IMG/VR virus record: IMGVR_UViG_3300046804_001013
Coordinates: 1-43,426 of that record
DNA length: 43,426 nucleotides
Strand: one strand, 5' to 3'
From: a virus
Below the pieces are notes generated by a model. It ran no database searches. It was not told where the DNA came from and saw nothing but the letters and a program-made list of their open reading frames with translations. Positions 605 through 35,369 of the stretch are shown piece by piece (within the stretch, counting starts at the first letter, position 1; every line of letters begins with the position of its first letter). The position numbers and the translations under genes are program-made.

Positions 605-1516
605 ATGACTATTAATTTCGAATCACTTAAACAAAATCGTAAGTCTAACTTTGACAAACTCACATCCGAGCTCAACAAGCTCAATTCTACAGTTCCCCAA
701 GACAGCACAAACGACGACCGTTACTGGAAACCAGATGTTGACAAAGCCGGAAACGGTTATGCGATCATTCGTTTTCTTCCCGCACCAGCTGGGGAAGACA
801 TGCCTTTCGTACGCATTTGGGATCATGGGTTCCAGGGTCCTGGCGGTTGGTATATCGAAAAGAGTCTAACTACTTTTCAAAAGCCTGATCCAGTATCAGA
901 GATGAATACTAAACTTTGGAATTCTGGTATTGAATCTAACAAAGAAATCGTTCGTAAGCAGAAGCGTCGTCTCTCTTACTTCTCAAACATTCTGGTCGTG
1001 AATGATCCTACCCGTCCTGAAAACAACGGTAAGGTATTCTTGTTCAAGTATGGTAAGAAGATCTTTGATAAGCTTAATGAAGCAATGCATCCTCAGTTTG
1101 CTGATGAGAAGGCAGTCAATCCATTTGACTTCTGGGATGGTGCTAACTTTAAGTTGAAGATTCGTCAGGTAGAAGGCTATCGTAACTACGATAAGTCAGA
1201 GTTTGAAGCACCATCACCTGTATCTCAAGACGATGATGAGATTAAGGCAGTGTGGCAGAAACAACATTCACTTCAAGAGCTTCTTGATCCTAAGCACTTT
1301 AAGTCATACGAAGAACTTAAGATGCGTTTAGAGAAGGCTCTTGGTACAGCCAATGATTCAGCTCAACGCATGGCGCCTGCTATCGATGAAGATGAAGCAT
1401 TTCCTACACCTTACAAGGCAGCTCCTGCACCATCAATTGCTAAGCAGGAATCAGCACCTTGGAATGATGATGACGATGAAGATTTGAGTTTCTTCAAGAA
1501 GCTTGCTTCTGATTAA
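605..1516 (+). CDS. 32: gp32-like single-stranded DNA binding protein
   Basis: The 303-residue protein is the T4-family SSB that coats single strands during replication, recombination and repair. Visible parts are a basic N-terminal segment (KQNRKSNF, for cooperativity), the OB-core motifs AGNGYAIIRFLP, GGWYIEKS, SYFSNILVV, GKVFLFKYGKKI and NFKLKIRQVEGYRNYD, and an acidic C-terminal tail (NDDDDEDLSFF) of the kind that recruits replication partners such as gp59. A GGAG ribosome site lies at 595-598. The protein has no cysteine at all, so the zinc ligands of T4 gp32 (one His and three Cys) are not present as such. Its TAA stop at 1514-1516 interlocks with the stop of the opposing tape measure gene. 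No terminator is visible between them. Confidence 0.95.
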   Translation: MTINFESLKQNRKSNFDKLTSELNKLNSTVPQDSTNDDRYWKPDVDKAGNGYAIIRFLPAPAGEDMPFVRIWDHGFQGPGGWYIEKSLTTFQKPDPVSEMNTKLWNSGIESNKEIVRKQKRRLSYFSNILVVNDPTRPENNGKVFLFKYGKKIFDKLNEAMHPQFADEKAVNPFDFWDGANFKLKIRQVEGYRNYDKSEFEAPSPVSQDDDEIKAVWQKQHSLQELLDPKHFKSYEELKMRLEKALGTANDSAQRMAPAIDEDEAFPTPYKAAPAPSIAKQESAPWNDDDDEDLSFFKKLASD

Positions 1517-3636
1517 GGGTGACCCATACCATAATATGCACGAGAGTTTATCGTGCGGTCTAGAAGTGATGGAGCAGGGGCTGTGGAAACGGCCCCTGAA
1601 CTTCTAGGATTAGATGGTGGTGGTAATGTAGGTGATCTAAACATTCCTTGACCACCTGCTCCTAAATTAACTGGAGGGGGGTTAGAAGCTGCAACTGCAT
1701 TAGTTGCTGATTGTGTTGCAACTGCGATTGCATTTTTGTTTATTACTGGTGTAAAGGTAGTTTCAGTTAAACCAGAAGAAGCGCCCATTGCATCAGTTGA
1801 AGTTATATCAGTAGCAGCAACTGGCATAGCAGGGCCAGCTTCAGCCATCCCACCCCAAGTAGTTGACTGTAATGCTTTCTGGGCAGTCTGTTCTTTGGTA
1901 TCTTCTATTCCAAAGAACTTTCTAACTGAATCAGGTAACATACCTATTATTTTACTAGGTAAGCTTTTAAACATTTTAGCTATTTCATCTATTAATAATG
2001 ATAGAGGATCAAATACAGCATCAACTAATTTTTTAAATATATCAGTAAATGAGAATGAATCTAATATTTTAGAAGCATTATCAAATCCCATTTTCTTTAA
2101 TAGCCAAGAAGAAATATCTTTCAATAGATTTAATGGTTCACCGACAATAGAATTAAACAAACCAGTTATAGCACCTTTAACAGCACCTACAAAACCTTCT
2201 TGCTTGTAACCTTCAATAGCACCAGATACAGAATCCCAAACACCCATAATTACCATTAACGGCCATGCGAGTCTTTCAACTGCAGTAGATACAAATTTAA
2301 ATAGACCGGAAAATCTACCTACACTTTCTAATAGTGTACCTATAACACCTTTAGCATCTTCTAGAAGTGTAATAACCGGGTTAAAAAATTCTCTTATTGA
2401 CTTAAATATACCTGAGAATTTAGATGCAACACCATCTGCAGAAGCCATTTGTCCTATAAATGCTGCAGCTTCTTCAAACGGTCTGATAAGAGGTCCTAAT
2501 GCTTCTTTAAAAAAGTTTAAAGTAGCAGTAAATTTTTCACCTATACCTAGATTTTTAAATCCACCTTTGATAGCTTCTATTGCTTCTTCTATAGCAGTAG
2601 CAACTCTAGATGTTATTTCACCTGCTTTAGATTTAACTATTTCAAAAGCTGCAATTACTTCATCTACCGCTTTACTAGCCGCACCTCTGATAGAGGATGC
2701 AATACCACCAAAAAATTCGCCAATTGGTACTAATACTTTTTCGTTAAATAGTGCTGCTAATTTATCAAGTCGAAATAGTTCAGCAAATGTTTCTAGAGTT
2801 CTAATCCATGCTTTAAACAAACCACTGATAGTTCCAAGTGCAACTGCAAGACCAGCAATTATAGCTCCTATACCTCCTAAAGAAGTGTCTCTCTGCCCAG
2901 CTCCTGCACCAGCGGTACCACCTTCTTGAACTCTAGCTGCTTCTCTAGCCGCTTCTATTCTTTCACGAGCATTGGCTTGCCATGACTCAGCAAGATCAGT
3001 AAGAATAATATTATTGATTTTAGTAAATTCAAGTATGCTCTTTAGAGTATCTTCTATACTCTCAAATATAGATAATTGCTTGGTATCATTCTTCTGTTGT
3101 TGATTGCTAACACGGGTAGCACTGCTTCTACCTCCACCACCTCCAATAACAGCTGGTACTATCTGTTCTAAACCAGCAGATTGTAATGCAGCACCCATAA
3201 ATGCACGGGGATTTAACATATTACCAATAGTAGATTGTCTAATACTACCACCTATTAGACCACCGATATTTTTAACTGTACCGGTTGCTACACCATCATT
3301 ACGAGATAATTTCTTAACAACTTCGGTTAAACGGGTAGTATCTTTAGATTGCTGAGCAGCTCTTTTTTGATTATCTTTTGTAGCTGCAGAAGATTGACGA
3401 GCTGCTTTAGTTGTTTCTGCTGTACTTTTTTTAATTTCTTTAGCTGCTTGTGTTATCTGCAAAGCAGCTTCTTTTTCAGCTCTTATTTTATCTAATTCTG
3501 CTTGAGCTTGTGCAGCCCTTCCTGCAGCCTTTTCACTAGGCTGTCTACCTTCTGCTCTAGCTTTTTCAGCTATTTTTTTAAATTCATCTACAATTTGTTG
3601 TAGAATTTCTTCAGTAGACTGCGGTCTTTTAGCCAT
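1513..3636 (-). CDS. tape measure protein (gp29-like, tail length)
   Basis: This 707-residue protein has tape-measure architecture. Residues 1-115 are rich in Ala, Lys, Gln and Glu and look like a long coiled coil. Gly-rich stretches follow (GGLIGGSI about 124, VIGGGGGRSS about 163), then a hydrophobic segment around 253-274 (GGIGAIIAGLAVALGTISG), alternating amphipathic helices, and a Pro/Ser-rich C-terminal tail. T4 gp29, which sets tail length, is 590 residues. The gene follows gp26 and the 58-codon frameshift partner, the usual place of a tape measure after its assembly chaperones. It starts 8 bp inside that small gene. The call rests on composition and context; no strong sequence motif was matched, so a scaffold-like hub protein remains possible. 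Confidence 0.75.
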   Translation of the reverse strand: MAKRPQSTEEILQQIVDEFKKIAEKARAEGRQPSEKAAGRAAQAQAELDKIRAEKEAALQITQAAKEIKKSTAETTKAARQSSAATKDNQKRAAQQSKDTTRLTEVVKKLSRNDGVATGTVKNIGGLIGGSIRQSTIGNMLNPRAFMGAALQSAGLEQIVPAVIGGGGGRSSATRVSNQQQKNDTKQLSIFESIEDTLKSILEFTKINNIILTDLAESWQANARERIEAAREAARVQEGGTAGAGAGQRDTSLGGIGAIIAGLAVALGTISGLFKAWIRTLETFAELFRLDKLAALFNEKVLVPIGEFFGGIASSIRGAASKAVDEVIAAFEIVKSKAGEITSRVATAIEEAIEAIKGGFKNLGIGEKFTATLNFFKEALGPLIRPFEEAAAFIGQMASADGVASKFSGIFKSIREFFNPVITLLEDAKGVIGTLLESVGRFSGLFKFVSTAVERLAWPLMVIMGVWDSVSGAIEGYKQEGFVGAVKGAITGLFNSIVGEPLNLLKDISSWLLKKMGFDNASKILDSFSFTDIFKKLVDAVFDPLSLLIDEIAKMFKSLPSKIIGMLPDSVRKFFGIEDTKEQTAQKALQSTTWGGMAEAGPAMPVAATDITSTDAMGASSGLTETTFTPVINKNAIAVATQSATNAVAASNPPPVNLGAGGQGMFRSPTLPPPSNPRSSGAVSTAPAPSLLDRTINSRAYYGMGHP

Positions 3637-3805
3637 CTCGTTTTCTATTTTCTTCTAGTTCTTTGAGATGCTGCATAAGCAATTCCACGAATAGATCTCG
3701 CTCATACGGGTACATCTCGTATACCTCTGTTAAAGTATATTTATGGTGTTGAACTAGAGCAAATAGTGTATTATAATAGACCGCAATATTAGAATACCCG
3801 GTCAT
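3629..3805 (-). CDS. small tail assembly chaperone partner, expressed by -1 frameshift
   Basis: A 58-codon ORF starts with ATG at 3805 and contains the motif TEVYEMYPYERDLFVELL. The pattern of a short helix, an aromatic/Pro-Tyr-Glu-Arg motif and a second helix resembles the downstream half of tail assembly chaperone pairs (lambda G/GT, P2 E/E'). It lies between gp26 and the tape measure, overlapping gp26 by one base (TAATG) and the tape measure by 8 bases. It is in the -1 frame of gp26, and a T TTT TTT slip site sits just before the gp26 stop, so the main product may be a gp26 fusion of about 290 residues. In position it may correspond to T4 gene 51, but no sequence match was made. Independent initiation at its ATG is also possible. 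Confidence 0.75.
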   Translation of the reverse strand: MTGYSNIAVYYNTLFALVQHHKYTLTEVYEMYPYERDLFVELLMQHLKELEENRKRDG

Positions 3806-3817
3806 TACGTAAAAAAA
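3779..3817 (-). promoter_or_regulatory. putative programmed -1 ribosomal frameshift signal (slip site plus hairpin)
   Basis: On the minus strand, the last gp26 codons read AGT TTT TTT ACG TAA, giving a T TTT TTT heptamer at 3817-3811 in the correct phase for tandem -1 slippage. After a 7-base spacer containing the gp26 stop, GACCG (3803-3799) can pair with CGGTC (3783-3779) around a 15-base loop. After slipping, the ribosome reads TAC GTA ATG ACC and continues into the 58-codon ORF. Slip site, spacer length, hairpin and downstream ORF phase all agree. The 5-bp stem is modest, and frameshift efficiency cannot be judged by eye. Confidence 0.75.
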
Positions 3818-4500
3818 CTATTGAGGCCTTTCAGAACAATATCTCTAGTCTTACCTTCTTTATTCTTAATTTTAATAGTATGTTCTACAGATGGCATAGT
3901 ATCAAAGAAATCTTTAATCTTATTAATACTATCTAGAGGCAAATTGTTAATAAAATCATATAATTCATCTTCTGTAAAATCACTATAGACATTATCATTA
4001 TCATAGATCTTGTCTATGCATTTGAATAGAATATCTAAAATTGCTTTTTCTTCATTATTTTTAGACTCTATCAATTTAATCTCATTCAACGTTGGATATC
4101 TCATAACGATACCAATATCACCTTGAATAATAAATTTGTTCTTATGCTCAGGGTTGAACTTAACTTCAACATCATCTAGATTGACTCTAAACTTAATATT
4201 CTCATCTGTTTCAGAATCTTTAAATTCTAGATCAACTATTTCACCAAGAGACTTTGCTCTTAATTTAATAAAGATATACTCTATATCAAATGTAGATAGT
4301 TTATCTGCATTGATATTTTCAATAATACAGTTAGTAATAAGCTGTTTAATAGTATTAACTGTATCCTCAGTACTATTAGATTGTTTAGCCATAAGAAGAA
4401 GCTTTTCTTCTTGTACTGTGAATGGTCTTATATTTACTTTTTGCTGAGTAGAAGGGATAGTGATAGCATATGTTGGATGCTTTATTTTAGGTAGTGCCAT
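3805..4500 (-). CDS. 26: gp26-like baseplate hub / tail assembly protein
   Basis: The 231-residue protein begins MALPKIKHPTYAITIPSTQQ and continues NIRPFTVQEEKLLLMAKQS, a typical start for the T4 gp26 baseplate hub family (T4 gp26 is 208 residues). In T4, gp26 acts in central hub assembly. Its place directly before a frameshift partner and the tape measure suggests it works like the G-type tail assembly chaperones that hold the tape measure. The minus-strand leader contains AAGGAC shortly before the ATG. The reading frame ends ...NSFFT at a run of seven T residues, where a -1 shift would replace the final Thr with a C-terminal extension. The family call is firm; the chaperone role is inferred from order and the slip site. 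Confidence 0.85.
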   Translation of the reverse strand: MALPKIKHPTYAITIPSTQQKVNIRPFTVQEEKLLLMAKQSNSTEDTVNTIKQLITNCIIENINADKLSTFDIEYIFIKLRAKSLGEIVDLEFKDSETDENIKFRVNLDDVEVKFNPEHKNKFIIQGDIGIVMRYPTLNEIKLIESKNNEEKAILDILFKCIDKIYDNDNVYSDFTEDELYDFINNLPLDSINKIKDFFDTMPSVEHTIKIKNKEGKTRDIVLKGLNSFFT

Positions 4501-4517: not shown

Positions 4518-5255
4518 TTATAAGAATGATAAAACACCTGCTAGAATGTTAACTTTGTTTTGAACTATTGCAGGTGAAGTAAAGTTGAGAAGTTCCCATA
4601 TAACTTTATTCTCTGCATCAACACGAGATGCAGTTGCTTGAGTAGCATTATAAATTGCCTGTGATTTGTAGTTAATAGTACCTTGATCTAATGTTTCTGA
4701 ATTCCAATAATTATATGCAAATGTGATAGGTATTCTTACTAATTGATCTTGATTATTCCAATCAACTGCAACATCACTTATTGCAATTGGGTATGCATCT
4801 ATAAGTGTATACTTAATAACTTGTTCACTAGCATCATCAAAATGTGTAATTTCAACTATACCATGATATTCGTTTGGATAACCTAGAGTGTTAATAGCTA
4901 ACCCACTTCTAGTAGTTGCTTCTGGGTTTATAGTTGCATTAAAGTTGTAGATAGCTTGCATCCAACGATGATAGAAGTTCAATACCTTACTATTAGAATC
5001 ATTATAAAAATGTAATGTGATGTCAGTAAAGATAGGTGCATAAGGTCTCTTTTCAACATTACCGTAACCAGTCATTTTTATTTCATCAGTTTGAAAAGAT
5101 ACACCAGGTAATGCAGCTGCTTCACATAGAAAGAAAAGATTAGGATTGACAGCAAGACTTCTAGGTGGGTATACTTCAGCAAAGAATTTGGAGGTTTTAG
5201 TTAAACCACCAGAAGCATTCATTGCCCCCATCATGTCTCTGATATTAAATGCCAT
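4518..5255 (-). CDS. tail tube-like protein, probably gp54-type tube initiator
   Basis: A 245-residue protein with tail-tube-fold features: an LPGVSF segment near residue 50, then TDEIKMTGYGNVEKRP, FTDITLHFYND and FYHRWMQAIYN, followed by a segment ending in a tyrosine-rich ITFAYNYW strand. This order (Leu-Pro-Gly, a strand with E/P, a D-rich strand, then an F...W helix) is shared by T4 gp19 tail tube and gp54 tube initiator. The position in an operon with gp26 and the tape measure favours the baseplate-proximal initiator gp54. The main gp19 tube gene in T4-type phages normally sits beside the gp18 sheath, which is not in this window. An AGGA precedes the start, and the gene overlaps its upstream neighbour by 11 bases. 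Confidence 0.65.
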   Translation of the reverse strand: MAFNIRDMMGAMNASGGLTKTSKFFAEVYPPRSLAVNPNLFFLCEAAALPGVSFQTDEIKMTGYGNVEKRPYAPIFTDITLHFYNDSNSKVLNFYHRWMQAIYNFNATINPEATTRSGLAINTLGYPNEYHGIVEITHFDDASEQVIKYTLIDAYPIAISDVAVDWNNQDQLVRIPITFAYNYWNSETLDQGTINYKSQAIYNATQATASRVDAENKVIWELLNFTSPAIVQNKVNILAGVLSFL

Positions 5256-19003: not shown

Positions 19004-22000
19004 ATGGCTGAGTTACAGACCAATTTTAACGTTGCTCCATTTTATGATGATTATGATGAAGACAAAATGTATTACCGCATTTTGTTCCGACCATCTACTG
19101 CGGTTCAAGCACGCGAATTAACTCAGCTCCAGACTATGATGCAGAAGCAAATCTCACGATTTGGTGCTAGCATCTATAAAGACGGTTCAGTTGTTGAAGG
19201 TTGTAATTTTACTCAGTATCCAGGACTTGCGCAAGTTAAATTTAAAGATAGTAACACATCAACTATAGATTTTACAGTTCTTACTAGAGATATTACTGAC
19301 GTAGCAAATACATCTTCTCATCTTTCTCAATCTCATCTCTTAGTTTCTAATACTTACGGTACAAGAGCAGCTATCTTCGAAGCATTTACTGGTGCTGAAT
19401 CAGCAGTAAATCGTGGAAGTAAAGATACTAATAGAGCATACGTAATATACCTCTATTCTGGTAATAATGCTGGTGTTCAAGTAGACAACTTTGTATCAGG
19501 TGAACAAATAGACGTTTATTTACCAACTCAAGATAAACTTGACACTCTAGATCCTAATAAAAAAATAGGTGTATCATACGTATTAACATCAAATAGTACA
19601 GTTAATGCTTTAGGTACAGGTTTTGGTTTACATGTTGGTCAAGGTATTATATACCAAAAAGGTTTCTTCTTAAAAGCAAATGCTGGTAACTTTGTTATTA
19701 AAGAACACACATCAAATGCAGTTGGTATTAAAGTAGGCTATAATACTCAGGAATATATTGTAAAACCTTCAGAAGATCCTTCTCTTTATGATAACTCTAT
19801 TGGATCACCAAACTACAATGCACCTGGTGCATATAGATTAAAACTAGTACCTACATTAGTAGCATATGATTCAACAAATACTGATATTACTATACCTAAA
19901 GATTTCTTACCTGTAGTTGATTTTAGTGGTGGTTTAGGTACTGCAGTAACAGTTCAAGAAGATCCATTCTACAGTACAATTGGTGACATTATTGCTAAGA
20001 GAACAAAAGAAGAGTCAGGTGATTATATCGTTAAGCCTTTTCAAATTAACGTAGAACCATCTTCTAACTCGCAAACAATGTATTATTCTATATCACCTGG
20101 TATTGCATATGTTGATGGTTATAGAGTAGAATTTAAATCACCTAGACGAATTGAAATTAATAGAGGTATTACTTCTAGTTATATTGCAAGTGAAAGACTA
20201 ACAGTTAACTATGGTAACTATGTAAAAATTAGAGATACAGCAGGTATTTTTGATATAGGTGGTTTACAATCAGTTTCTATCTATAATGCTAACCAGTATG
20301 CTATTTCTAGAAACATTGCTATTTCAGCTCCAGTTGGCACTCTTGTAGGTAATGCTACTGTTAGAGCAATTAAATATAATTCAGGTTCTAAAGGTACCCC
20401 TAACGCTGAGTATCTTCTATATCTTACTAATATTAATATGGCACCAGGATATAGTTTTGCATCAAATGCAAAAAGTATCTATGTGAACGGTACTTACGGT
20501 AAAGTGTTTGCTGATATTGCAACAGATCCATTCTCTGGATATTCTATGCTTTACGGTACAGATACAACATCTAAGTCACTTATATTCTATACAGGTTTAG
20601 ATGGTGTAAAGAGACTTACAAGTAATACAGGTGTAAACAATACAAGTTATATCTACAGAACAACAACTGATCCTGTAAACGTAGTTCGTTCAGGTGGTAA
20701 ATTTACTGCTTCATTTACAGCAGCAGGTGATGAATACAACTTTGGTGCATGTACCGGTATTTCAGATTCACTTTCTAGTACTATTCAATTATATTTTAAT
20801 ACAGATATGACAGCCAACATTTATACAGCTGCTTATTCTGCAGGATCTACTGCAGGTGTTGCTAACCTCACTCACAGTAATATAACATGTACTGCAGTTA
20901 CCGGTGGTACAGGTAGTTTTATCACAAACTATGGTGTATCAGGACAAACATTAAGAGTGGGTGATAGTGTTAAAGCATCTTATACTATTGGTGCTACTCC
21001 TACTGTTTCCTATCATACAATCACTTCAATATTCTCTGCAAACGGTATTACAGTTACACCTACACTAGGTGGTTCAGTAACTGCAGGTTCTATCTTCTTG
21101 AATAGATTCTTTAAAACAGGTGAGGCAATTGACTTTGATGGTGGTGGTAATACTATTGCATTTACTACATCAGCTGGTCTAGTTACAGGTATGACAGCTA
21201 CTGTATCTGTAGATCCAGAAGCAACCGGTACGTTTACTGTTCGTGCACAAATACCACAAGTTAAGAAAACTGCACAACCTATACAAAAAGTAGTATCAAA
21301 AGACAGATATATTGCTATTAACGTTGAAAGCCATCCTACAGGTACTGCAGGTCCTTGGTCATTAGGTATACCAGATGTTTATAAAGTTGAAGCAATATAT
21401 TTGGGTGCAGGTTTTGCAAATACAAATCCTGATAGAAAAGATTGGTTTACTTTTGATAATGGACAGAAAGACAATTATTACGGGTTAGCATCTATTTCAA
21501 TTAACCCGCAATATAAATCTGCTATCACAACTTCTACTAGATTATTAGCTAGAGTAAGTCACTTTACTCCAAATATTTCTTCTTCAAAAGCAACATTCTT
21601 CTCAGTAGATTCTTATTCTATTGATGATGCAAATACTGCAAACACAAATGCAATAGTTACTGCGCAAATTCCAGTCTATAAAGATATATCAGGTAACATT
21701 TATGATTTAAGAAATCATATAGATTTTAGACCGGTTATGAGTAATACAGCTGTAAGTACAACTTCAGCAGCATGGCCTAACTACTCAGTTAATCCTGCTA
21801 ACTCATCATTGAGATTCTATTCAGCAACAGGTGCTAACTATGCAATAGAACCTGATAGTAACTTTACGTATAATATTGAATACTACTTACCAAGAGTCGA
21901 CTCTCTTATAATTAATAAAGATAGCAGGTTAGATGTTAAATCTAGTGTGCCTTCATTTAATCCTAAAGCACCTATAATAAATAATACAGGTTTAAAGATA

Positions 22001-22054
22001 GCTGACATTTACGTAACACCCTATCCATCATTAACATTTTCAGAAGCAGAATAA
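19004..22054 (+). CDS. DUF4815-type structural protein, N-terminal part
   Basis: The 1016-residue protein begins LQTNFNVAPFYDDYDEDKMY then YRILFRPSTAVQARELTQLQ, the N-terminal signature of DUF4815 phage structural proteins. It is rich in beta strands. Later blocks SISPGIAYVDGYRVEF and DISGNIYDLRNHIDFRPVMS, and the end region YNIEYYLPRVDSLIINKD, are also typical. In homologs I recall, the chain continues without a break into a segment like the one at the start of the next ORF. Here it stops at a single TAA (22052-22054) and the next ATG is in the same frame two codons later. It probably forms peripheral baseplate or fibre-attachment structure, in place of T4 gp9-gp12. AGGGAT gives a good ribosome site. 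Confidence 0.85.
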   Translation: MAELQTNFNVAPFYDDYDEDKMYYRILFRPSTAVQARELTQLQTMMQKQISRFGASIYKDGSVVEGCNFTQYPGLAQVKFKDSNTSTIDFTVLTRDITDVANTSSHLSQSHLLVSNTYGTRAAIFEAFTGAESAVNRGSKDTNRAYVIYLYSGNNAGVQVDNFVSGEQIDVYLPTQDKLDTLDPNKKIGVSYVLTSNSTVNALGTGFGLHVGQGIIYQKGFFLKANAGNFVIKEHTSNAVGIKVGYNTQEYIVKPSEDPSLYDNSIGSPNYNAPGAYRLKLVPTLVAYDSTNTDITIPKDFLPVVDFSGGLGTAVTVQEDPFYSTIGDIIAKRTKEESGDYIVKPFQINVEPSSNSQTMYYSISPGIAYVDGYRVEFKSPRRIEINRGITSSYIASERLTVNYGNYVKIRDTAGIFDIGGLQSVSIYNANQYAISRNIAISAPVGTLVGNATVRAIKYNSGSKGTPNAEYLLYLTNINMAPGYSFASNAKSIYVNGTYGKVFADIATDPFSGYSMLYGTDTTSKSLIFYTGLDGVKRLTSNTGVNNTSYIYRTTTDPVNVVRSGGKFTASFTAAGDEYNFGACTGISDSLSSTIQLYFNTDMTANIYTAAYSAGSTAGVANLTHSNITCTAVTGGTGSFITNYGVSGQTLRVGDSVKASYTIGATPTVSYHTITSIFSANGITVTPTLGGSVTAGSIFLNRFFKTGEAIDFDGGGNTIAFTTSAGLVTGMTATVSVDPEATGTFTVRAQIPQVKKTAQPIQKVVSKDRYIAINVESHPTGTAGPWSLGIPDVYKVEAIYLGAGFANTNPDRKDWFTFDNGQKDNYYGLASISINPQYKSAITTSTRLLARVSHFTPNISSSKATFFSVDSYSIDDANTANTNAIVTAQIPVYKDISGNIYDLRNHIDFRPVMSNTAVSTTSAAWPNYSVNPANSSLRFYSATGANYAIEPDSNFTYNIEYYLPRVDSLIINKDSRLDVKSSVPSFNPKAPIINNTGLKIADIYVTPYPSLTFSEAE

Positions 22055-22057
22055 AAT

Positions 22058-23863
22058 ATGGGTTATAAAAGACAAGATCTCGCAGTAAGAGTAGATATTC
22101 AAACTGCTAAAGGCTATACAATGAAAGAAATCTCTGCTCTTGAGCAGAGAATTAAAAATCTTGAATACTATACAGTTCTTAATGCACTAGCATTAGATAC
22201 AAAGACCCTTTCTATTCGTGATGCAAATAATAATATTGAACGTTTTAAAAACGGTATATTTGCAGACCCATTTAATGATGATACTATTGCAAGATCTAAC
22301 GATGTAGAATTCAATATGGCAATTAGTTCTTCTAAGTCTATTGCCCGTCCTAATTATACAGAAACGTTTAATGATTTTGAAGTAGATACAACTACTAGTT
22401 CAAACTATAAAATTAATACACGCCTGGCTATGCTTAATTATGAGCATATATTACTAGGTGGTAACCCTTATGCTACTACATATAGAAATTGTGCTGAAAC
22501 TTTCTTTAGTTTTAGAGGTTCAGTTTCTATATTTCCTAGCTATGATGGTACTAATGTTAACACACAAGCTGCACCTCAGGTAATGAAAGTAGATATGGCA
22601 TCTGCTTTCCAGGATGCTGCTGCTAACGGTGCATTTAAAGATATTGACACTACATATAGTGCTCCTAAAATTACAAAAGAAGAAGGTAGAACTAATTACT
22701 GGGCAATGGATGCAAAACAAACCATTACAGATATTAAAGTTTCTGCTCAATCTTCTACACAAGATTTAGGTAATTTTATAAAAGATGTTTCTATGCTTCC
22801 TTATATGAGAGGAAGAAAATTGGGTATTATTGGAAGAAATTTAAAACCAAATACTATATTATATCCATTTTTTGATAAAAAATCTGTATCTGCATATTGT
22901 GCTCCAGGTAAAATAGATTCAAGTTTCTTAACTGTAAGTGGAGCAGTTGACACAGATAAGTTTAAAACTTATACTGGCGATCCTAGCGATGTATTTACCA
23001 ATAATGGTGCATTAAATAGTACTTTAAAAACAGATTCAAAAGGTAATATTATAGTAATTTTTTATTTACCAGAAAATACTTTTAGAGCTGGTGAAAGAAT
23101 ATTTACTTTAGCTAATGTTAGCGATCTTGCTGATACTGGTGGTATATTAACATCCGGTGAAGGTGTGTATACATCTCAAGGTCTCTCTACAACCTCGCAA
23201 AATCTTAAATTTGAAGTAATTGAACCTCAATTTACACCTAGTACAACTACTAAAGACATTGATCCTCTTACTTGGACTACTGTTGATCCTCCACCCCCAC
23301 CGTCTCCTAATCAGCCTTCTCCGGAAAGATGCTGCTTTGATCCAGAAGCTAAAGTTACTATGGCAGATGGTACATTAAAGAAAATTTGTGAAATTATACC
23401 AGGAGATAAAGTAAGAACTAATAATGATAATCTTCTTTACAATAATGTTATTGGTATAGAATCACCAGCTATTGGTAATAGATTAATGTATTCGTTTAAT
23501 GATAATTGGGCTTTCGTATCTGAAGAACATCCAATAATGACTGATCAAGGTTGGGGTGCTTTTAACCCTGATAGCTGGGCAGTAGAGGATGAATTTAAAG
23601 GTAAATTAGTCAAGATTGATATTGGTACTAGAGTTTTAAAACTAGAAGGTGGTTATGAAACTGTAGAAACTATAAACACACAAGAAAAACCAGAAGATTA
23701 TATTATTTACAATCTTATGTTAGATGGTGATAACACCTTTGTAGTAGAAGGTTATATAGTTCATAATAAGAGTGGAGATGGATGGCAACCTCCTTCAAAT
23801 CCAGGTTGTTCAGCTCCTAGCAATTACAGTCCACCAAAAGATTGTTCTGGTTTATTAGGTTAA
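22058..23863 (+). CDS. DUF4815-type structural protein, middle part, with C-terminal Hint domain
   Basis: Residues 1-410 continue the DUF4815 chain (VRVDIQTAKGYTMKEISALE, QRIKNLEYYTVLNALALDTK, GRKLGIIGRNLKPNTILYPF, IVIFYLPENTFRAGERIF). A proline-rich linker (VDPPPPPSPNQPSPER) leads to a Hint/intein-like domain: Cys426 opens CFDPEAKVTMADGTLKKI, EIIPGDKV follows, SEEHPIMTDQGWGAF carries His491, and NTFVVEGYIVHNKSG ends the domain at His569-Asn570. A 31-residue tail with two Cys follows. Residue +1 is Lys, not Cys/Ser/Thr, so cleavage or ligation is more likely than classical splicing. It shares the reading frame of the preceding ORF, separated by one TAA, and only weak AGAAG precedes its ATG. 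It ends with TAA TAA TAG. Confidence 0.85.
   Translation: MGYKRQDLAVRVDIQTAKGYTMKEISALEQRIKNLEYYTVLNALALDTKTLSIRDANNNIERFKNGIFADPFNDDTIARSNDVEFNMAISSSKSIARPNYTETFNDFEVDTTTSSNYKINTRLAMLNYEHILLGGNPYATTYRNCAETFFSFRGSVSIFPSYDGTNVNTQAAPQVMKVDMASAFQDAAANGAFKDIDTTYSAPKITKEEGRTNYWAMDAKQTITDIKVSAQSSTQDLGNFIKDVSMLPYMRGRKLGIIGRNLKPNTILYPFFDKKSVSAYCAPGKIDSSFLTVSGAVDTDKFKTYTGDPSDVFTNNGALNSTLKTDSKGNIIVIFYLPENTFRAGERIFTLANVSDLADTGGILTSGEGVYTSQGLSTTSQNLKFEVIEPQFTPSTTTKDIDPLTWTTVDPPPPPSPNQPSPERCCFDPEAKVTMADGTLKKICEIIPGDKVRTNNDNLLYNNVIGIESPAIGNRLMYSFNDNWAFVSEEHPIMTDQGWGAFNPDSWAVEDEFKGKLVKIDIGTRVLKLEGGYETVETINTQEKPEDYIIYNLMLDGDNTFVVEGYIVHNKSGDGWQPPSNPGCSAPSNYSPPKDCSGLLG
23333..23767 (+). other. Hint (bacterial intein-like) autoprocessing domain
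   Basis: Residues Cys426 to Asn570 of the middle DUF4815 protein, 145 residues, match the Hint layout: N-terminal Cys followed by Phe, a TMADG turn, the GDKV block, a His-containing EEHPIMT block, and a C-terminal FVVEGYIVHN. The first Cys (Cys425) immediately before Cys426 makes the exact scissile residue ambiguous. Size fits bacterial intein-like domains without a homing endonuclease. Confidence 0.82.
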
Positions 23864-27792: not shown

Positions 27793-27995
27793 TGCGTGAT
27801 GCTAAGATAGTAGTACAAAGACATGGTGATATATTAGTAACAGTTGCAAGATCTGCACCTATTGAAACTACTATTATTGTTAGACAAATTAATCAGACAA
27901 TAGAAACGCTTTCTGTATTGAAACAGAAAGCGTCAGATGTACTAGGAACAACACCTTCTGTTCCTAATCAAGCTCCACCTGTGAGCTTTTTTTAA
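27792..27995 (+). CDS. small protein of unknown function
   Basis: A 67-residue ORF begins MRDAKIVVQRHGDILVTVAR and continues APIETTIIVRQINQTIETLS. The N-terminal half alternates as beta strands and the C-terminus is Pro-rich. It is coupled to the preceding gene by TAATG. A perfect 11-bp inverted repeat (27906-27933) and a terminator hairpin lie within its 3' part, and its TAA interlocks with the glycosyltransferase stop. I do not recognise a family. Confidence 0.6.
   Translation: MRDAKIVVQRHGDILVTVARSAPIETTIIVRQINQTIETLSVLKQKASDVLGTTPSVPNQAPPVSFF
27906..27933 (+). repeat. perfect 11-bp inverted repeat inside coding sequence
   Basis: ACGCTTTCTGT (27906-27916) and ACAGAAAGCGT (27923-27933) are exact reverse complements around a 6-base loop ATTGAA. 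The RNA hairpin would be strong for AT-rich DNA. No T-run follows, so it is not a typical intrinsic terminator; it could block exonucleases or aid the terminator about 35 bases downstream. Confidence 0.75.
27970..27993 (+). terminator. rho-independent terminator at the end of the plus operon
   Basis: AAGCTC (27970-27975) can pair with GAGCTT (27983-27988) around CACCTGT, and the T-run 27987-27993 follows directly. It overlaps the last codons of the 67-residue ORF and the convergent glycosyltransferase stop. On the minus strand no T-run follows the stem, so it acts in the plus direction. The stem is short. Confidence 0.6.
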
Positions 27996-30760
27996 GATAC
28001 TCTAAACGTATACGATCCAATGTGATCACAGAGTATGCTTGTATCAGCATAAAATTTATAACCTTTTTCAGATGCTTTCTTTGCAAAGAAGAGATCTTCT
28101 GAGAACGTATGGTTATGATCTAAAGCAGACTTATATGCAAATTGTGGATAACCGATATCTACCATAACTTGTTTTTTAATTAGTACACAACCAAAACCAC
28201 ATGCACCTATTTCAACTAGACCTTTACCTTTAATCTTTTCCCAATCAATATGAGTATAACCACCATTATTATTTGATTCAAAGATTTCTAGAGTCTGTCT
28301 TTCAGGTACTCTTTGTCTATAGATACCTGTTACAATATCTTTATCATGTGATAAGAGTCTTGAAAGCGTATCTGATGGGAAAGCAATATCAGAATCTACT
28401 GCAAACAGATAATCATAACCTTTAACAACCCAATCTGCAATCAGATTACGAACCTGATCTACCTGATATCCATAGAAATATTGAAAGTTGAGATTATACT
28501 CATCAGATACAACCTGATCATAGATTGATTTAAAAGTTTGTGCTTCAATATTTCTTGCTGTCGGTATTGCAATTAAGATATTTTTCTTAGGAATATTTTT
28601 CACAATTATATCCTTTGTTTCTACCATTTCATATTTTGGATCAAGCGTTTTTGGTTGATCAGGGCTTATATCTATTCTTTCCATTTTTATAGGAACAGAT
28701 TTAGTAATTTTAGATGCATTTTGATTTTGTAGTTCTGCATGAACTTTATAATCATTTAATGGATTTAAATCATTATAGTTATAAAAGACCTCTTGAACTG
28801 CAGTTACTTTATCAGGGTTAGCTTGTTCAATAATATTATAGAATGTAGCATTGTCACCACCAGCTTTAAACCAGTTACCTACTTCATCTTTAAATACTTC
28901 TTCGTCAATCTTATCTACTAATCTCTTAACAAATACACGAAGATGTGGGTAAGGCATTCCCCAGTTAAATTTATACTGTCTATATGCTTTTGCATCCTTA
29001 ATTGCTTTTGGATATGGTTGTGCAATTAATGGTATGTTATCTGCAAGTGACCAGCAGCTTCCATATGCATATTCAGTTTTATTATCTGCAAATAGATTAT
29101 TATAGAAATTAAAGATATTGTTATCTGCTCTCAGCGTATCATCACCATCGAGAAGCATAATTAAACTCTCATCTTCAATAGGGTAGTTTTTAATAGTTTT
29201 AATCTGATTATAAACCGCACCTCTATTTTCTTTATTATTAAGAATAATAAATTTCTCTTGAAGATCAATAGAAAGACTATTGATAAAGTCTTTAACTACA
29301 TTAAGACTATTATCTGTACTACAATCGTTAATTAAGTACATATGGTAGTTATTATAGTCTTGACTAATAACAGACATAATACAATTAATAATGTATTTTT
29401 CAGCATTATAAAATGGTGTTATAATGCTAATATGTCTCTCTCTGTTTAATCTAGTGATATTCCATTCTTCTTTATTACTAAAACGACGCCCATAAACTCT
29501 ATGAACTTTATCGTTAATATATGTTACTTTACGATATTCTTCTACTGGAAAGTATATATCAAAATGTCTGCAAAAGAGCTGCTTCCATTGTAATGCAACA
29601 GTGTCCCATGTATTAATATCTTTAACTATATTACAATAATATTGCTTTTGTTGATGTAGATATGGGTCATTGTATGCTCTGATAACCTTCTCAACAAATT
29701 TGTTAACTTGATCATCGATATTAATATCTGGAAACAAGCTATTAGGTTCAATAGCATAATCAATAAAGTATGATGCTTGATCAATAGCAGTCTCTTCTAG
29801 TGCACCAAAACGGGTTGCAACTAGAGGTGTATTATATGTTAATGATTCAAGAGTAGAGATACCAAATGTTTCCGGGAAAGCACCCGGAAAGAGAAACATA
29901 TTTGATTTTGCAAGTAGTTCGGCAATTTGTTTCTGTGTAATGATACCTGTAAACTCAATATCCATTGCTGCATATTTTGGATCTCTCATGAGCTTCATGA
30001 GAGTCTCACCCTGTGCATCCAAAGGTGCATCAGAACGAAAACGGTAGTAACCACCTACTACTTTTAATTTTGCATCTGGAATATATTGTTTAATTTTAGG
30101 CCAAATTCTATCAACAAGAGGTAGAAGACCTTTAGTTACAGAAGCATTATAAACAAAGAGATTTTTATCTTTTGCTTTGATATCAACTTCATCGATATAA
30201 TTAACCACTGCATTTCGAGTTTGAAATACTTTATTTTTAAGCACTTCAAAATTGCGTCTCTTACCGTGATGACAGTTAGTTACATATGCAGTATGAAAAT
30301 CTGAGAGAGTAAAGATCTTATCGATATAACCATTGACTGCAAGATCTTCTAGATTAATATCACCGTTTGCAAAAGTATCATGCATCCACATGATCTTTAA
30401 TTTTGCATTATCTCTTAAAGATTTAAATTTTGCAGGATTATGTCTAGTAGCAGTTTTATATGCTTCAAAGTAGTGATCTGGGATAAAAGGAACTACAGTT
30501 CTAGATGAGATAACAATATCATATTTTTCAGAATCTAAGTTACCGTCAATAGACTTATAATTAACACCGTCATAAATACCTGGACGGCTGTCATCATCTT
30601 GACATGCATTAAAAACTGTTACCGGAAACCCTAATTTTGCAAGTTCGCGGGAGATTAGAATGACAGCGGATTCAGATCCACCAAGTCCACGACTATTGAG
30701 TGTATTTCCGTCATATACAAGACCAATCAGGTCAAGAATTGCAATCGATGGCAGTTTCAT
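27992..30760 (-). CDS. three-domain glycosyltransferase (GT4 + GT2 + GT-A-like)
   Basis: From the ATG at 30760 the protein is 922 residues. Domain 1 (about 1-400) is GT4-like GT-B: GLGGSESAVILISRELAKLG, IMWMHDTFANGD, LKVVGGYYRF and FPETFGISTLESLTYNTPLV with the E-x7-E-type motif. Domain 2 (about 440-690) is GT2-like GT-A: HISIITPFYNAEKYIINCIM, YLINDCSTDNSL and LLDGDDTL. Domain 3 (about 730-922) is another GT-A-like module: ILIAIPTARNIEAQTFKSI, YLFAVDSDIAFPSDTLSRLL, GACGFGCVLIKK. It has no membrane segment. It is the only minus-strand gene in the fibre region, standing beside the collagen-like fibre gene, so it may glycosylate virion proteins or host/phage polysaccharide; this is inference. 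Its stop interlocks with the preceding plus gene. Confidence 0.87.
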   Translation of the reverse strand: MKLPSIAILDLIGLVYDGNTLNSRGLGGSESAVILISRELAKLGFPVTVFNACQDDDSRPGIYDGVNYKSIDGNLDSEKYDIVISSRTVVPFIPDHYFEAYKTATRHNPAKFKSLRDNAKLKIMWMHDTFANGDINLEDLAVNGYIDKIFTLSDFHTAYVTNCHHGKRRNFEVLKNKVFQTRNAVVNYIDEVDIKAKDKNLFVYNASVTKGLLPLVDRIWPKIKQYIPDAKLKVVGGYYRFRSDAPLDAQGETLMKLMRDPKYAAMDIEFTGIITQKQIAELLAKSNMFLFPGAFPETFGISTLESLTYNTPLVATRFGALEETAIDQASYFIDYAIEPNSLFPDINIDDQVNKFVEKVIRAYNDPYLHQQKQYYCNIVKDINTWDTVALQWKQLFCRHFDIYFPVEEYRKVTYINDKVHRVYGRRFSNKEEWNITRLNRERHISIITPFYNAEKYIINCIMSVISQDYNNYHMYLINDCSTDNSLNVVKDFINSLSIDLQEKFIILNNKENRGAVYNQIKTIKNYPIEDESLIMLLDGDDTLRADNNIFNFYNNLFADNKTEYAYGSCWSLADNIPLIAQPYPKAIKDAKAYRQYKFNWGMPYPHLRVFVKRLVDKIDEEVFKDEVGNWFKAGGDNATFYNIIEQANPDKVTAVQEVFYNYNDLNPLNDYKVHAELQNQNASKITKSVPIKMERIDISPDQPKTLDPKYEMVETKDIIVKNIPKKNILIAIPTARNIEAQTFKSIYDQVVSDEYNLNFQYFYGYQVDQVRNLIADWVVKGYDYLFAVDSDIAFPSDTLSRLLSHDKDIVTGIYRQRVPERQTLEIFESNNNGGYTHIDWEKIKGKGLVEIGACGFGCVLIKKQVMVDIGYPQFAYKSALDHNHTFSEDLFFAKKASEKGYKFYADTSILCDHIGSYTFRVS

Positions 30761-30764
30761 TGTT

Positions 30765-30769
30765 ACCTC
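30765..30769 (-). promoter_or_regulatory. ribosome binding site fixing the glycosyltransferase start
   Basis: The minus strand reads ATGAGGTAACA followed by the ATG at 30760, so GAGGT lies 4 bases before the codon. The alternative upstream ATG at 30781 adds seven residues and has only AT-rich sequence before it. The GT4 domain starts directly after the chosen ATG (MKLPSIAILDL). Confidence 0.7.
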
Positions 30770-30778
30770 ATAACAAAA

Positions 30779-30786
30779 CATAAATA
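30779..30786 (+). promoter_or_regulatory. candidate late promoter for the collagen-C1q gene
   Basis: CATAAATA matches the T4 late box TATAAATA at 7 of 8 positions and lies 50 bases before the ATG at 30837 in the only non-coding gap between divergent genes. Supporting sequence is otherwise AT-rich, so chance similarity cannot be excluded. Confidence 0.4.
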
Positions 30787-30836: not shown

Positions 30837-33800
30837 ATGGCGCTGATTTTTAATAGTCAACAGATATCTGCGAACGGTACTGCAAATTCTTTCTCACTTA
30901 CACAGACTGTTAATCTAGCTAATAACATTCTTGTTATTGTAAATGGTCTTGTACAGATACCTGGTGTTGACTATGTTATTGTTAACAGCAATACAGTTAA
31001 TCTTGCCTCAACTCCTTTTATAAATTCTGATATTGAAATCCGTTATATTGAAAATGACGGTGTTGGATATACTGGTTCTGAAGGTGATACTGGTTATTCC
31101 GGTTCATTGGGTGGTACCGGATATTTCGGTTCTACTGGTTACAAAGGATCCACTGGTGATAAAGGTGCTACTGGTGACCCCGGTGGTTCTCAAGGTTATT
31201 CTGGTTCTGCTGGTTTTACTGGTTCACGAGGTGCTGGTTATGATGGTTCAATAGGACCTGTAGGTAAACCTTCTAAAACATCTCGTTATACAGGTAATGG
31301 AAGTAATACACATTTCACATTACTTGAAGATACTGCTAACTCAAATCACATTTTCGTATTTACTAACGGTATATTAGAATCACCTGATGTTGATTATTCA
31401 GTATCAGGTACTATATTAACTTATTCTGTTGCACCACCTCTTAATGCAGAAATCGAAGTAAGATATTTTGATATCACTATAGGTTCACCTGGATATCAAG
31501 GTTCAACTGGTTTTCAAGGATCACTAGGTAGTACAGGTTATAAAGGCTCTTTAGGTGATACTGGTTTCAAGGGTTCTGTAGGTGCTACCGGACCACAAGG
31601 ACCATCTGGTGGTCAAGATGGTTATACTGGTTCTACTGGTGACTTAGGTTATTCCGGTTCTATTGGTTATACTGGTTCACAAGGTGTAGGACGTCCATCT
31701 GCTTCTTCAAGATATATTGCAAACGGAAGTAATACTCAATTTACATTACTTGATCAAACATCAGATCCTAATCATATCTTTGTCTTTGTTAATGGTATCC
31801 TTGAAACTCCTGATATAGATTATACTGTATCTGGAACAACATTGCAACTAAATTCTGCACCTCAAAATGGTGCAGAAATAGAAGTAAGATATTTTAATAC
31901 TACCCAAGGAGATGTTGGGTACAGAGGTTCTGAAGGTTATAGAGGTTCAGCTGGTTATACTGGTTCTACAGGTATAACTGGTTATATTGGTTCAGAAGGT
32001 TTTGTAGGATCTCAAGGTGATCAAGGTGTTCCGGGTTACGTAGGTTCACAAGGTAGTAAGGGTGATCAAGGTTTACCTGGTGGTTTCGGTGGTGCATCGT
32101 TTAACTATAAATTTAGCACTAATACTGTTAATTCTGATCCAGGTCCCGGTCATTTTAGATTAAGTAACACAACATTTACACAAGTTACTGATTTTTATAT
32201 TAACGAGAATGATGTTTATTACGACTCAACTTATTCATTCTTACAAACTATTGACGACTCAACATCTGCTATTAAAGGTCACTTCTCAGTAACAGAAGTA
32301 GCAAACGTTGATAATTTTGCTCTCTTTAGTATTGTTGGATATCATACATACACTCCTAATTACTTTGATGTTCCAGTAGTATTCTTATCTGGCACTGCAA
32401 CATCTTTTGCTAATGATGCAGACGTTATTGTTACATTTGCTAGAACTGGTGACCGAGGTGACACTGGCTATACAGGGTCAAAAGGTGATATTGGATATAC
32501 AGGGTCTAGAGGTGATGCTGGTTATCTAGGATCATTTGGTTTTACTGGATCAAAAGGTGATTTAGGTTATACAGGTTCTATCGGATATACAGGATCTACT
32601 GGTTTTGTAGGATCATTTGGTTATACCGGTTCGACAGGATTTACAGGCAGTTTAGGTTCTACAGGTTACGTTGGTTCTATAGGTTATACTGGATCAATTG
32701 GTTACACCGGTTCTAAAGGTGATATCGGTTTTGTAGGCTCTACTGGTTATCTTGGTTCTTTTGGTTACACAGGTTCTACTGGATTTACAGGTTCAAGAGG
32801 TGATGCAGGTTATCTAGGATCATTTGGTTATACTGGTTCAACTGGGTTTACAGGGTCACGTGGTGTAGACGGTTATACAGGCAGTATAGGTTATACAGGA
32901 TCTATTGGTTTTACTGGATCACAAGGATTTGCAGGATCACAAGGTGACCAAGGTATTCAAGGTAATATTGGTCCTCTTGGTTACACTGGTTCGCTAGGTT
33001 ACTTTGGATCATTTGGTTATACAGGTTCACAAGGTGAACAAGGTATTTCAGGTTATGCTGGTTCTACTGGTGCTGGGTATACTGGTTCAGATGGTTATGT
33101 TGGTTCTCAAGGTGATTTAGGTTTCACTGGATCACAAGGTCCAATAGGATATTCTGGGTCTTATGGTGATTTAGGATACACTGGATCACAAGGTGATGTA
33201 GGCCCATCAGGACCACAAGGTGAAATAGGTTTTTCTGGTTCTGTAGGTGATTTAGGTTATACAGGTTCAGTAGGTGCCGGTTATACAGGTTCAGAAGGTT
33301 ATACTGGTTCTTATGGTGATTTAGGTTATACAGGTTCAGTAGGCGATCTTGGATATACTGGATCATATGGGTTTACCGGTTCAAGAGGTGCTGAAGGTAC
33401 ACCAGGTAATTTTTCTGGTACTACTTACTTAGTTTACTTTAGTTCTAATACAGTTTATGCTGACCCAGGCACCGGTTCTGCAAGGTTATCCAATACTTAC
33501 TTTAGTAATGCTACTCAATTATACATTAGTAAACAATCTCTAGATCTTCAATATCTGTATAATGCTCTATTGATAGTAGAAACTTCTACATCAAGTATTA
33601 AAGGTCATTTTAAACTTACCAATACTACAAATACAAATAATTATGCAGTATTTGCTATTATTGATGATATTATAGACAACAATACCTATGCTACTGTACC
33701 AGTTAGTTTCCTTTCTGGTGATCAAAACATACCAGATACTACTATTTCTACTATCACTATAGCACGTATAGGTGATAAAGGTGATGTAGGGTATTCAGGT

Positions 33801-34919
33801 TCTACAGGTTCTACTGGTGGCTACGGTTACACTGGTTCCAGAGGTTATTCAGGTTCTGCTGGTAATACAGGTTATGCTGGTTCGAAAGGTGAACTCGGAT
33901 ATGCTGGTTCTACTGGGGCTGGTTACGTAGGTTCAGAAGGTTATACAGGGTCAACTGGTAGTTTAGGATACACAGGTTCTATTGGTGCTGGTTACACAGG
34001 GTCACAGGGTGATGTTGGTTATGTTGGATCGGAAGGTATTGCTAACGTTATAGTTAGTGATACCACACCAGTCATCCAATGGGATGGTTTATTATGGTTA
34101 GATTCAAATACTGGTATATTAAGTATCTACTATCAACCTGAAGAAGTTTGGTTAGGTATTACAGCAGGCGGTCCTCCAGGATCAACAGGTTACACCGGAT
34201 CAATAGGTGATATAGGCTATACTGGTTCTATCGGAATAGGATATACAGGTTCAACAGGTGCAGGTTATACAGGATCAATCGGACCTGCTGGTGGTTATAC
34301 TGGTTCTAAAGGTGATATAGGTTATGTTGGATCACAGGGTGATGTTGGTTTTACAGGATCACAAGGTGTAGGTTATACTGGTTCTAACGGTGAAAATGGT
34401 TATGTAGGTTCAGACGGTTATGTCGGTTCTGCAGGTTTTGCTGGTTCACAAGGTATTATAGGTTATACTGGTTCACAAGCAATAGTTGTAGGTTCTAATT
34501 TTGGACTTAGAAAATCTACACAGCAATCAATTGCTAATAACAATTGGTCAAAAGTGACATTCAATAATACCGATTACGATCAAAATTCTGAAACTGCAAG
34601 TAGTACCTTTACACCATTACAATCTGGTTACTATCATTTTGAAGGTCAAGTATCGTTCTCCGGTCTTACAAATAGTAACACCGGAACGGTAAGTATTGCA
34701 ATTTATAAAAATGGTTTAGCACATAGAAATGGTATGAGAATACCAGCATATGGTACTTCGGTTGCAGTCTCAATATCAGAGATTGTTTATGCAAATACAG
34801 CTACTAACGATTACTTTGAACTCTTTGTATATCAAAATGCATCATCTGGATCACAATTAACTGACAGTTCTCCAACAGCTTCACAGCCAAGATTTACTGG
34901 CCGTTTCATACGTAGTTAA
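30837..34919 (+). CDS. giant collagen-like fibre protein with C-terminal C1q-like head
   Basis: The 1360-residue protein alternates Gly-X-Y collagen tracts (GYTGSKGDIGYTGSRGDAGY style; longest about 538-854) with globular modules. Residues 1-75, 148-212 and 288-354 are three related beta modules (e.g. HIFVFTNGILESPDVDYSV). Residues about 422-536 and 856-978 are two copies of a ~115-residue module (SSIKGHF near its middle). A small WDGLLWLDSNTGILSIYY module lies near 1070-1110. The last 141 residues (1220-1360) have TPLQSGYYHFEGQVSFSG, VSIAIYKNG, ISEIVYANTATNDYFELFVY and RFTGRFI, the C1q/TNF-like jelly-roll pattern. It is probably a trimeric fibre. Related modules recur in the 1543-residue fibre downstream. 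Confidence 0.87.
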   Translation: MALIFNSQQISANGTANSFSLTQTVNLANNILVIVNGLVQIPGVDYVIVNSNTVNLASTPFINSDIEIRYIENDGVGYTGSEGDTGYSGSLGGTGYFGSTGYKGSTGDKGATGDPGGSQGYSGSAGFTGSRGAGYDGSIGPVGKPSKTSRYTGNGSNTHFTLLEDTANSNHIFVFTNGILESPDVDYSVSGTILTYSVAPPLNAEIEVRYFDITIGSPGYQGSTGFQGSLGSTGYKGSLGDTGFKGSVGATGPQGPSGGQDGYTGSTGDLGYSGSIGYTGSQGVGRPSASSRYIANGSNTQFTLLDQTSDPNHIFVFVNGILETPDIDYTVSGTTLQLNSAPQNGAEIEVRYFNTTQGDVGYRGSEGYRGSAGYTGSTGITGYIGSEGFVGSQGDQGVPGYVGSQGSKGDQGLPGGFGGASFNYKFSTNTVNSDPGPGHFRLSNTTFTQVTDFYINENDVYYDSTYSFLQTIDDSTSAIKGHFSVTEVANVDNFALFSIVGYHTYTPNYFDVPVVFLSGTATSFANDADVIVTFARTGDRGDTGYTGSKGDIGYTGSRGDAGYLGSFGFTGSKGDLGYTGSIGYTGSTGFVGSFGYTGSTGFTGSLGSTGYVGSIGYTGSIGYTGSKGDIGFVGSTGYLGSFGYTGSTGFTGSRGDAGYLGSFGYTGSTGFTGSRGVDGYTGSIGYTGSIGFTGSQGFAGSQGDQGIQGNIGPLGYTGSLGYFGSFGYTGSQGEQGISGYAGSTGAGYTGSDGYVGSQGDLGFTGSQGPIGYSGSYGDLGYTGSQGDVGPSGPQGEIGFSGSVGDLGYTGSVGAGYTGSEGYTGSYGDLGYTGSVGDLGYTGSYGFTGSRGAEGTPGNFSGTTYLVYFSSNTVYADPGTGSARLSNTYFSNATQLYISKQSLDLQYLYNALLIVETSTSSIKGHFKLTNTTNTNNYAVFAIIDDIIDNNTYATVPVSFLSGDQNIPDTTISTITIARIGDKGDVGYSGSTGSTGGYGYTGSRGYSGSAGNTGYAGSKGELGYAGSTGAGYVGSEGYTGSTGSLGYTGSIGAGYTGSQGDVGYVGSEGIANVIVSDTTPVIQWDGLLWLDSNTGILSIYYQPEEVWLGITAGGPPGSTGYTGSIGDIGYTGSIGIGYTGSTGAGYTGSIGPAGGYTGSKGDIGYVGSQGDVGFTGSQGVGYTGSNGENGYVGSDGYVGSAGFAGSQGIIGYTGSQAIVVGSNFGLRKSTQQSIANNNWSKVTFNNTDYDQNSETASSTFTPLQSGYYHFEGQVSFSGLTNSNTGTVSIAIYKNGLAHRNGMRIPAYGTSVAVSISEIVYANTATNDYFELFVYQNASSGSQLTDSSPTASQPRFTGRFIRS
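34494..34916 (+). other. C1q/TNF-like trimerising head domain
   Basis: The 141-residue C-terminus has the C1q order: an opening strand (WSKVTF), SGYYHFEGQVSF, a strand ending in AIYKNG, EIVYANTATNDYFELFVYQN and a closing RFTGRFIRS. Collagen stalk followed by such a head is the architecture of C1q and of Bacillus BclA. Assignment is by pattern, without a profile search. Confidence 0.75.
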
Positions 34920-34964: not shown

Positions 34965-35369
34965 ATGGCATTAATATTTCCTAACAGCCCGCAGCTTGGC
35001 GATGAAGTTGTAACGGGTGGTAAAACTTGGAGATGGGATGGCTCACGTTGGCAAAACGTTGGGGTTATAGGCTATCAGGGTTCAGAAGGTTACAGAGGTT
35101 CACGAGGTGAAACTGGATATCAAGGATCTGTAGGTTACCAAGGGTCACAAGGTGAAATAGGTTATACAGGTTCTCAAGGATATACAGGATCTAAAGGTGA
35201 TATAGGTTACACTGGTTCTGTAGGTTCTACAAGACTAAGAGATTTAACTGACGTAGATATTTCGATACAATCAAATGGATATATTTTAACTTACATTTCA
35301 GATTCTGATAAATACTCAATACTACCACTTGAAATTTCAAATCAAACATTGGACGGAGGAGACTTTTAA
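34965..35369 (+). CDS. small collagen-like virion protein
   Basis: The 134-residue protein has an N-terminal module (LIFPNSPQLGDEVVTGGKTW then RWDGSRWQNVG) common in marine phage fibre proteins, a collagen tract of Gly-X-Y triplets at about 38-86 (YQGSEGYRGSRGETGYQGS), and a C-terminal segment (LRDLTDVDISIQSNGYILTY) that often caps such proteins. It ends with a TAATG overlap into the next fibre gene. A GGAGGA in its last codons can serve that gene. No clear ribosome site precedes its own ATG. Confidence 0.8.
   Translation: MALIFPNSPQLGDEVVTGGKTWRWDGSRWQNVGVIGYQGSEGYRGSRGETGYQGSVGYQGSQGEIGYTGSQGYTGSKGDIGYTGSVGSTRLRDLTDVDISIQSNGYILTYISDSDKYSILPLEISNQTLDGGDF

Follow-up and report, generated by a model that had tools for sequence, protein, structure and literature searches.

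A probable programmed -1 frameshift joins a gp26-type gene to a gp51-type extension in a T4-like phage

Can a single gp26-type gene supply a T4-like phage with two proteins? We examined the 43.4-kb IMG/VR virus record IMGVR_UViG_3300046804_001013 ("the window," meaning the whole stretch analyzed), in which a gp26-type gene is followed by a 58-codon open reading frame (ORF), here called ORF58. Judging from the sequence, the two very probably form one tail assembly chaperone (TAC) gene that would yield a short product by normal termination and a long one by programmed -1 ribosomal frameshifting. The slip site, its phase, the reading frame beyond it, missing start signals, a hairpin, homology, and gene order are all seen in the sequences; that ribosomes slip here, how often they do so, and that the products act as chaperones are inferred.

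Results

The gp26/ORF58 junction

The gp26-type gene ends in the codons CTC AAT AGT TTT TTT ACG TAA. Direct reading bears out the original prediction, made from the letters of this DNA, on every detail of the junction: the AGT TTT TTT ACG TAA end holds T_TTT_TTT in phase, the gp26 stop (TAA, 3807-3805) lies inside a 7-nt spacer (ACGTAAT), and the -1 frame past the heptamer reads TAC GTA ATG ACC and continues into the 58-aa ORF. The stop and the ORF58 start codon overlap as TAATG; counted from that ATG (3805-3803), ORF58 spans 3805-3629 and encodes 58 aa, the form that annotators would call. The order on the minus strand is tail tube, gp26, ORF58, putative tape measure (gene coordinates are on the minus strand throughout unless marked +):

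4518-5255, minus: tail tube-type gene, directly upstream of the gp26-type gene (PF23849, 8.1e-15; phrog_45 tail tube, 5.2e-32)
3805-4500, minus: gp26-type gene, short form (TAC-N), 231 aa (Pfam PF12322 T4_baseplate, 8.3e-62; phrog_150, 8.2e-67)
3811-3817, minus: slippery heptamer T_TTT_TTT in the gp26 phase (direct reading and conservation)
3804-3810, minus: 7-nt spacer ACGTAAT, including the gp26 stop (direct reading)
3779-3803, minus: stem-loop, proposed frameshift stimulator; 10-bp stem with a single bulged G, loop of 4 nt (covariation)
3629-3811, minus: -1 extension (TAC-C, gp51-type C-terminal domain), YVMTGYS...KRDG, 60 codons plus stop (phrog_634)
1513-3636, minus: putative tape measure gene, 707 aa, its first bases overlapping the last of the extension (position and length)

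The tape measure gene expected next is represented by the 707-aa ORF, which had no strong family match of its own in the Pfam and PHROG searches; its putative identity rests on position, length, and the tape measure annotation carried by its equivalent in Caulobacter phage Cr30. The layout as a whole fits the likeness to lambda G/GT that had been proposed for it. In the phages Cr30, DLP6, phiN3, phiM9, and AF3 (L068, L069, L070, L075, and L080), an extra ORF of ~80-150 aa, not present in the window, lies between the -1 extension and the tape measure gene.

The slip site across relatives

How widespread is the slip site among relatives of this gene? A scan of viral contigs in IMG/VR gave 65 gp26 relatives, and the gene end was reached in 62. 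All 62 carry T_TTT_TT(T/C) in phase, and the small ORF is in the -1 frame in every relative where it could be aligned. Among the distinct sequences with a Phe-Phe pair (n = 59), 51 have TTTTTTT and 8 have TTTTTTC, all in phase. The predicted conservation of the site in the same phase thus held in every close relative carrying it. Beyond these, T_TTT_TT(T/C/G) is kept by 11 of 14 named phages—the cyanophages P-RSM6 and P-SSM7, Pseudomonas phage pf16, Caulobacter phage Cr30, Stenotrophomonas phage DLP6, Sinorhizobium phages phiN3 and phiM9, Rhizobium phage AF3, Nitratidesulfovibrio phage SRB7757, Aeromonas phage phiWae14, and the KVP40-like PVA8—and the -1 ORF in these 11 distant phages is ~57-67 aa long. 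T_TTT_TTY is replaced by A_ATT_TTC in the Ackermannviridae phages LIMEstone and Maynard (L077 and L078) and by G_CTT_TTT in Vibrio phage K364 (L073); the -1 frame is nevertheless open from just before the site, and these sites suggest a weaker, single-tRNA slip. The case named beforehand as contrary to frameshifting (both ORFs kept, no slippery run) did not turn up within the window's clade, which is probably a freshwater one, judging from the IMG/VR sample set; only the weaker poly-T motifs of the Ackermannviridae and the one Vibrio phage depart from the pattern.

A run of seven T's (T7) is no rarity in this AT-rich window, where 12 occur against 21.5 expected, and is unremarkable by itself. 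The evidence comes from relatives, which conserve the phase, the reading frame, and the hairpin.

A covarying stem-loop after the heptamer

In the window, the stem-loop begins 7 nt past the heptamer and pairs GACCG-GGTAT with ATATT-G-CGGTC around the loop TCTA. The GACCG/CGGTC hairpin that had been predicted is present but larger than claimed, at 10 bp with a bulge (3803-3779). We aligned 34 distinct clade sequences without gaps, all of them sharing the 7-nt spacer. Across this alignment 94.7% of the stem cells are paired, four pairs have changes on both sides, and one pair is seen as C-G, G-C, A-U, and U-A. The covariation score was reached by none of 500 shuffles (the rows are related, and shuffle counts are not probabilities). 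Paired cells drop to 28-56% when the stem is slid out of register, RNAalifold finds the same helix unaided, and clade members fold with a median z-score of -3.06. Strong hairpins also stand at about the same place in Cr30 and DLP6. Two hallmarks of a -1 frameshift site are present: an X_XXY_YYZ heptamer in the zero frame and a structure 5-9 nt after it, here at the canonical spacing of 7 nt. With their compensatory changes, the clade sequences make a clean, naturally occurring alignment of a proposed stimulator of bacterial -1 frameshifting. An extended stem drawn from the fold of the window alone (columns 10-14 with 41-45) was less supported, as 12 of the 34 sequences break one of its pairs, and was not retained.

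Homology to T4 gp26 and gp51

What do the two parts correspond to in T4? T4 gp26 is a full-length homologue of the window's gp26 (hhalign 99.7%, E = 3.2e-25), and the ORF58 product matches phrog_634, the family of the T4 gp51 "hub assembly catalyst" (5.3e-17); compared directly with T4 gp51, the small ORF gives a weaker match (E = 3.3e-4). T4 gp51 itself matches PF12322 over residues 1-201 (3.9e-52) and carries the small-ORF motif at its C-terminal end (207-243). It is a gp26-like domain plus TAC-C, so that the fused product exists as one gene in T4, and the window phage would make by frameshifting what T4 encodes separately. ORF58 also matches, weakly (0.016), the C-terminal end of phrog_150, the gp26 family profile, a sign that this family may include fused proteins.

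Initiation signals and alternative explanations

Could ORF58 instead be a gene in its own right, with ribosomes that have terminated on gp26 restarting at the overlapping ATG through translational coupling? The TAATG overlap that this would use is found in the window and in many relatives, but several close relatives have lost the start while retaining the remainder of the ORF, and others have no initiator near the junction. About a dozen relatives lack a usable start codon there: no ATG, GTG, or TTG occurs among the 18 codons that follow the slip site in the -1 frame in L001, L014, L022, L027, L033, L057, L061-L063, P-SSM7, or phiWae14, and the -1 ORF of SRB7757 has none anywhere. Pairing with the anti-Shine-Dalgarno sequence revealed no Shine-Dalgarno motif at the ORF58 start (median +1.0 kcal/mol vs. 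-6.0 at gp26 starts). An independent start would also leave the invariant heptamer and the covarying hairpin unexplained, and T4 carries the fused form. On the lost starts and the missing Shine-Dalgarno motif we rejected this explanation, to which we assign only a slim chance. Genome annotations routinely give the gp51 piece a wrong start or overlook it: that of P-SSM7 begins gp51 ~33 codons late, and in Maynard the -1 ORF is unannotated.

The same fusion could arise if RNA polymerase, slipping on the homopolymer run of seven T's, added a base to some mRNAs. Polymerase slippage is poor on short runs of 6-7, however, and several relatives have only six T's followed by C or G (T TTT TTC, T TTT TTG) with the phase still kept, which makes transcriptional slippage unlikely; a conserved stem-loop at a distance of 7 nt is instead what ribosomal frameshifting typically shows. 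We consider its chance slimmer still. Almost no weight attaches to the idea that the run merely reflects a conserved Phe-Phe at the gp26 C terminus combined with AT-rich codon choice. The Phe pair is indeed conserved, the window favors TTT (51 of 62 Phe codons), and its T7 runs are neither rarer nor commoner than chance allows. Yet lineages that mainly use TTC (L060, DLP6, phiM9, AF3, and pf16) still have NNT TTT at the site. Given codon usage, NNT followed by a P-site TTT is improbable, with a product of ~1e-13 over 17 representatives, a rough figure that treats them as independent. Codon choice would also leave the hairpin and the missing starts unexplained, and we rejected a chance T run as the sole explanation on conservation and codon usage.

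Several observations nevertheless weigh against programmed ribosomal frameshifting at this junction or against the chaperone assignment. The window alone folds modestly (z = -0.93 over 60 nt), the stem-loop is weak in L025 and L056, and folding found none in many distant relatives; the cyanophages and Ackermannviridae tested lack the strong hairpin of Cr30 and DLP6. The window itself retains an ATG for the small ORF, as many members retain an ATG, GTG, or TTG near the junction, and some independent starts are possible there. The small ORF matches the T4 gp51 C terminus alone only weakly (hhalign probability 38%), and the fusion protein is a predicted one in the window phage and its clade. The AlphaFold model of gp26 is confident (predicted local distance difference test score, 86.8), but its best hits in a fold search of the Protein Data Bank (PDB) were the HK97 TAC 2ob9 (probability 0.23, E = 1.8) and YqbN 3klu (probability 0.20), the highest among the matches listed and neither significant. 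A PDB sequence search with the gp26 profile returned no relevant match to a solved chaperone; a viral fold search returned mostly gp26/gp51-type proteins, other baseplate proteins, or unnamed phage proteins. As the HK97 fold hint is nonsignificant, common ancestry of gp26 with lambda-type chaperones is not established.

Proposed mechanism

How might programmed frameshifting work here? Most ribosomes would stop at the gp26 TAA and release the 231-aa TAC-N short form. A minority, delayed by the stem-loop that starts 7 nt farther on, would shift one base backward on U_UUU_UUU and read on in the -1 frame, giving a long form (TAC-NC) of ~290 aa with the junction ...NSFF-YVMTGYS.... If the analogy with lambda G/GT holds, the short form would coat the tape measure protein from the next gene, and the extra domain of the rare long form would recruit tail tube subunits. 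We also lean toward a further proposal: that the clade evolved its own covarying stem-loop, tuning the ratio of short to long form on a poly-T site that elsewhere has little or no hairpin, and that T4 gene 51 is a hard-wired copy of the long form. If gene 51 is such a copy, T4's puzzling "hub assembly catalyst" would be recast as a tape-measure chaperone.

Other features of the window

Elsewhere in the window, two same-frame ORFs on the plus strand divide a DUF4815 protein between them (19004-22054 and 22058-23863, joined by TAA AAT ATG). The split is kept in close relatives, often with a change of frame, and a single long ORF is found in the distant relatives L106 and L108. The second piece ends in a Hint/intein-like domain (CCFDPEAKV...VHNKSG; 23320-23800, plus strand), with a Pfam Hint score of 5.7e-4 that is under the curated cut-off; this end is kept in several relatives. 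Three collagen-like proteins with GYTGS repeats, two of them very long, are encoded on the plus strand (30837-34919, 34965-35369, and 37196-41827) and are probably tail fibers. A 929-aa protein on the minus strand (27992-30781), reversed amid tail genes, has glycosyltransferase group 1 and family 2 domains.

Comparison with known systems

How does this locus relate to known chaperone genes? Vladimirov, Gautam and Davidson (2022, Virology 566:9-15) reportedly identified the tail assembly chaperones of T4-like phages, in an abstract said to name T4 genes 26 and 51. Papers citing that work credit it with poly-T -1 signals in the TAC-N genes of T4-like phages (PMC12846349) and with T4-like phages that keep the short and long forms as separate genes (PRFect, PMC10885494). 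By these accounts, those chaperones share the phage group, the poly-T slip site, and the two-form scheme with the window, and frameshifting on a T4-type gp26 is already known. The comparative evidence upholds the frameshift part of the original prediction and not its novelty; with T4-like frameshifted chaperones reported in 2022, the window is a strongly supported addition to a known group. It provides independent data that gp26 and gp51, which have long stood among the baseplate hub factors with no clear role, would be the short and long products of one frameshifted gene in most of the T4-like phages examined. Two features of the clade seem to be new, its covarying hairpin and its recurrent start-codon losses, no description of which was found in the literature searched, Vladimirov et al. 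being represented there by citing papers.

T4 itself differs. Its gp26 and gp51 have been listed among hub assembly chaperones (PMC3004832), and a 2016 review treats T4 as an exception to the conserved G-T frameshift (PMC5009743). In T4 and JSE, unlike the window, 26 and 51 are separate, divergently oriented genes with neither slip site nor frameshift. The lambda G/GT mechanism, which we used as an analogy (PMC5009743), offers a comparable two-form scheme with the short form in excess, on a slip site that differs from T_TTT_TTT. The arrangement in phage Adele and the Vandenendeviridae/Andersonviridae resembles the window in its conserved -1 poly-T frameshift (GTTTTT) at the TAC-N end with the tape measure downstream, but these are other phage families, and their motif is shorter, nearer to the Vibrio K364 site than to that of the window (PMC12846349).
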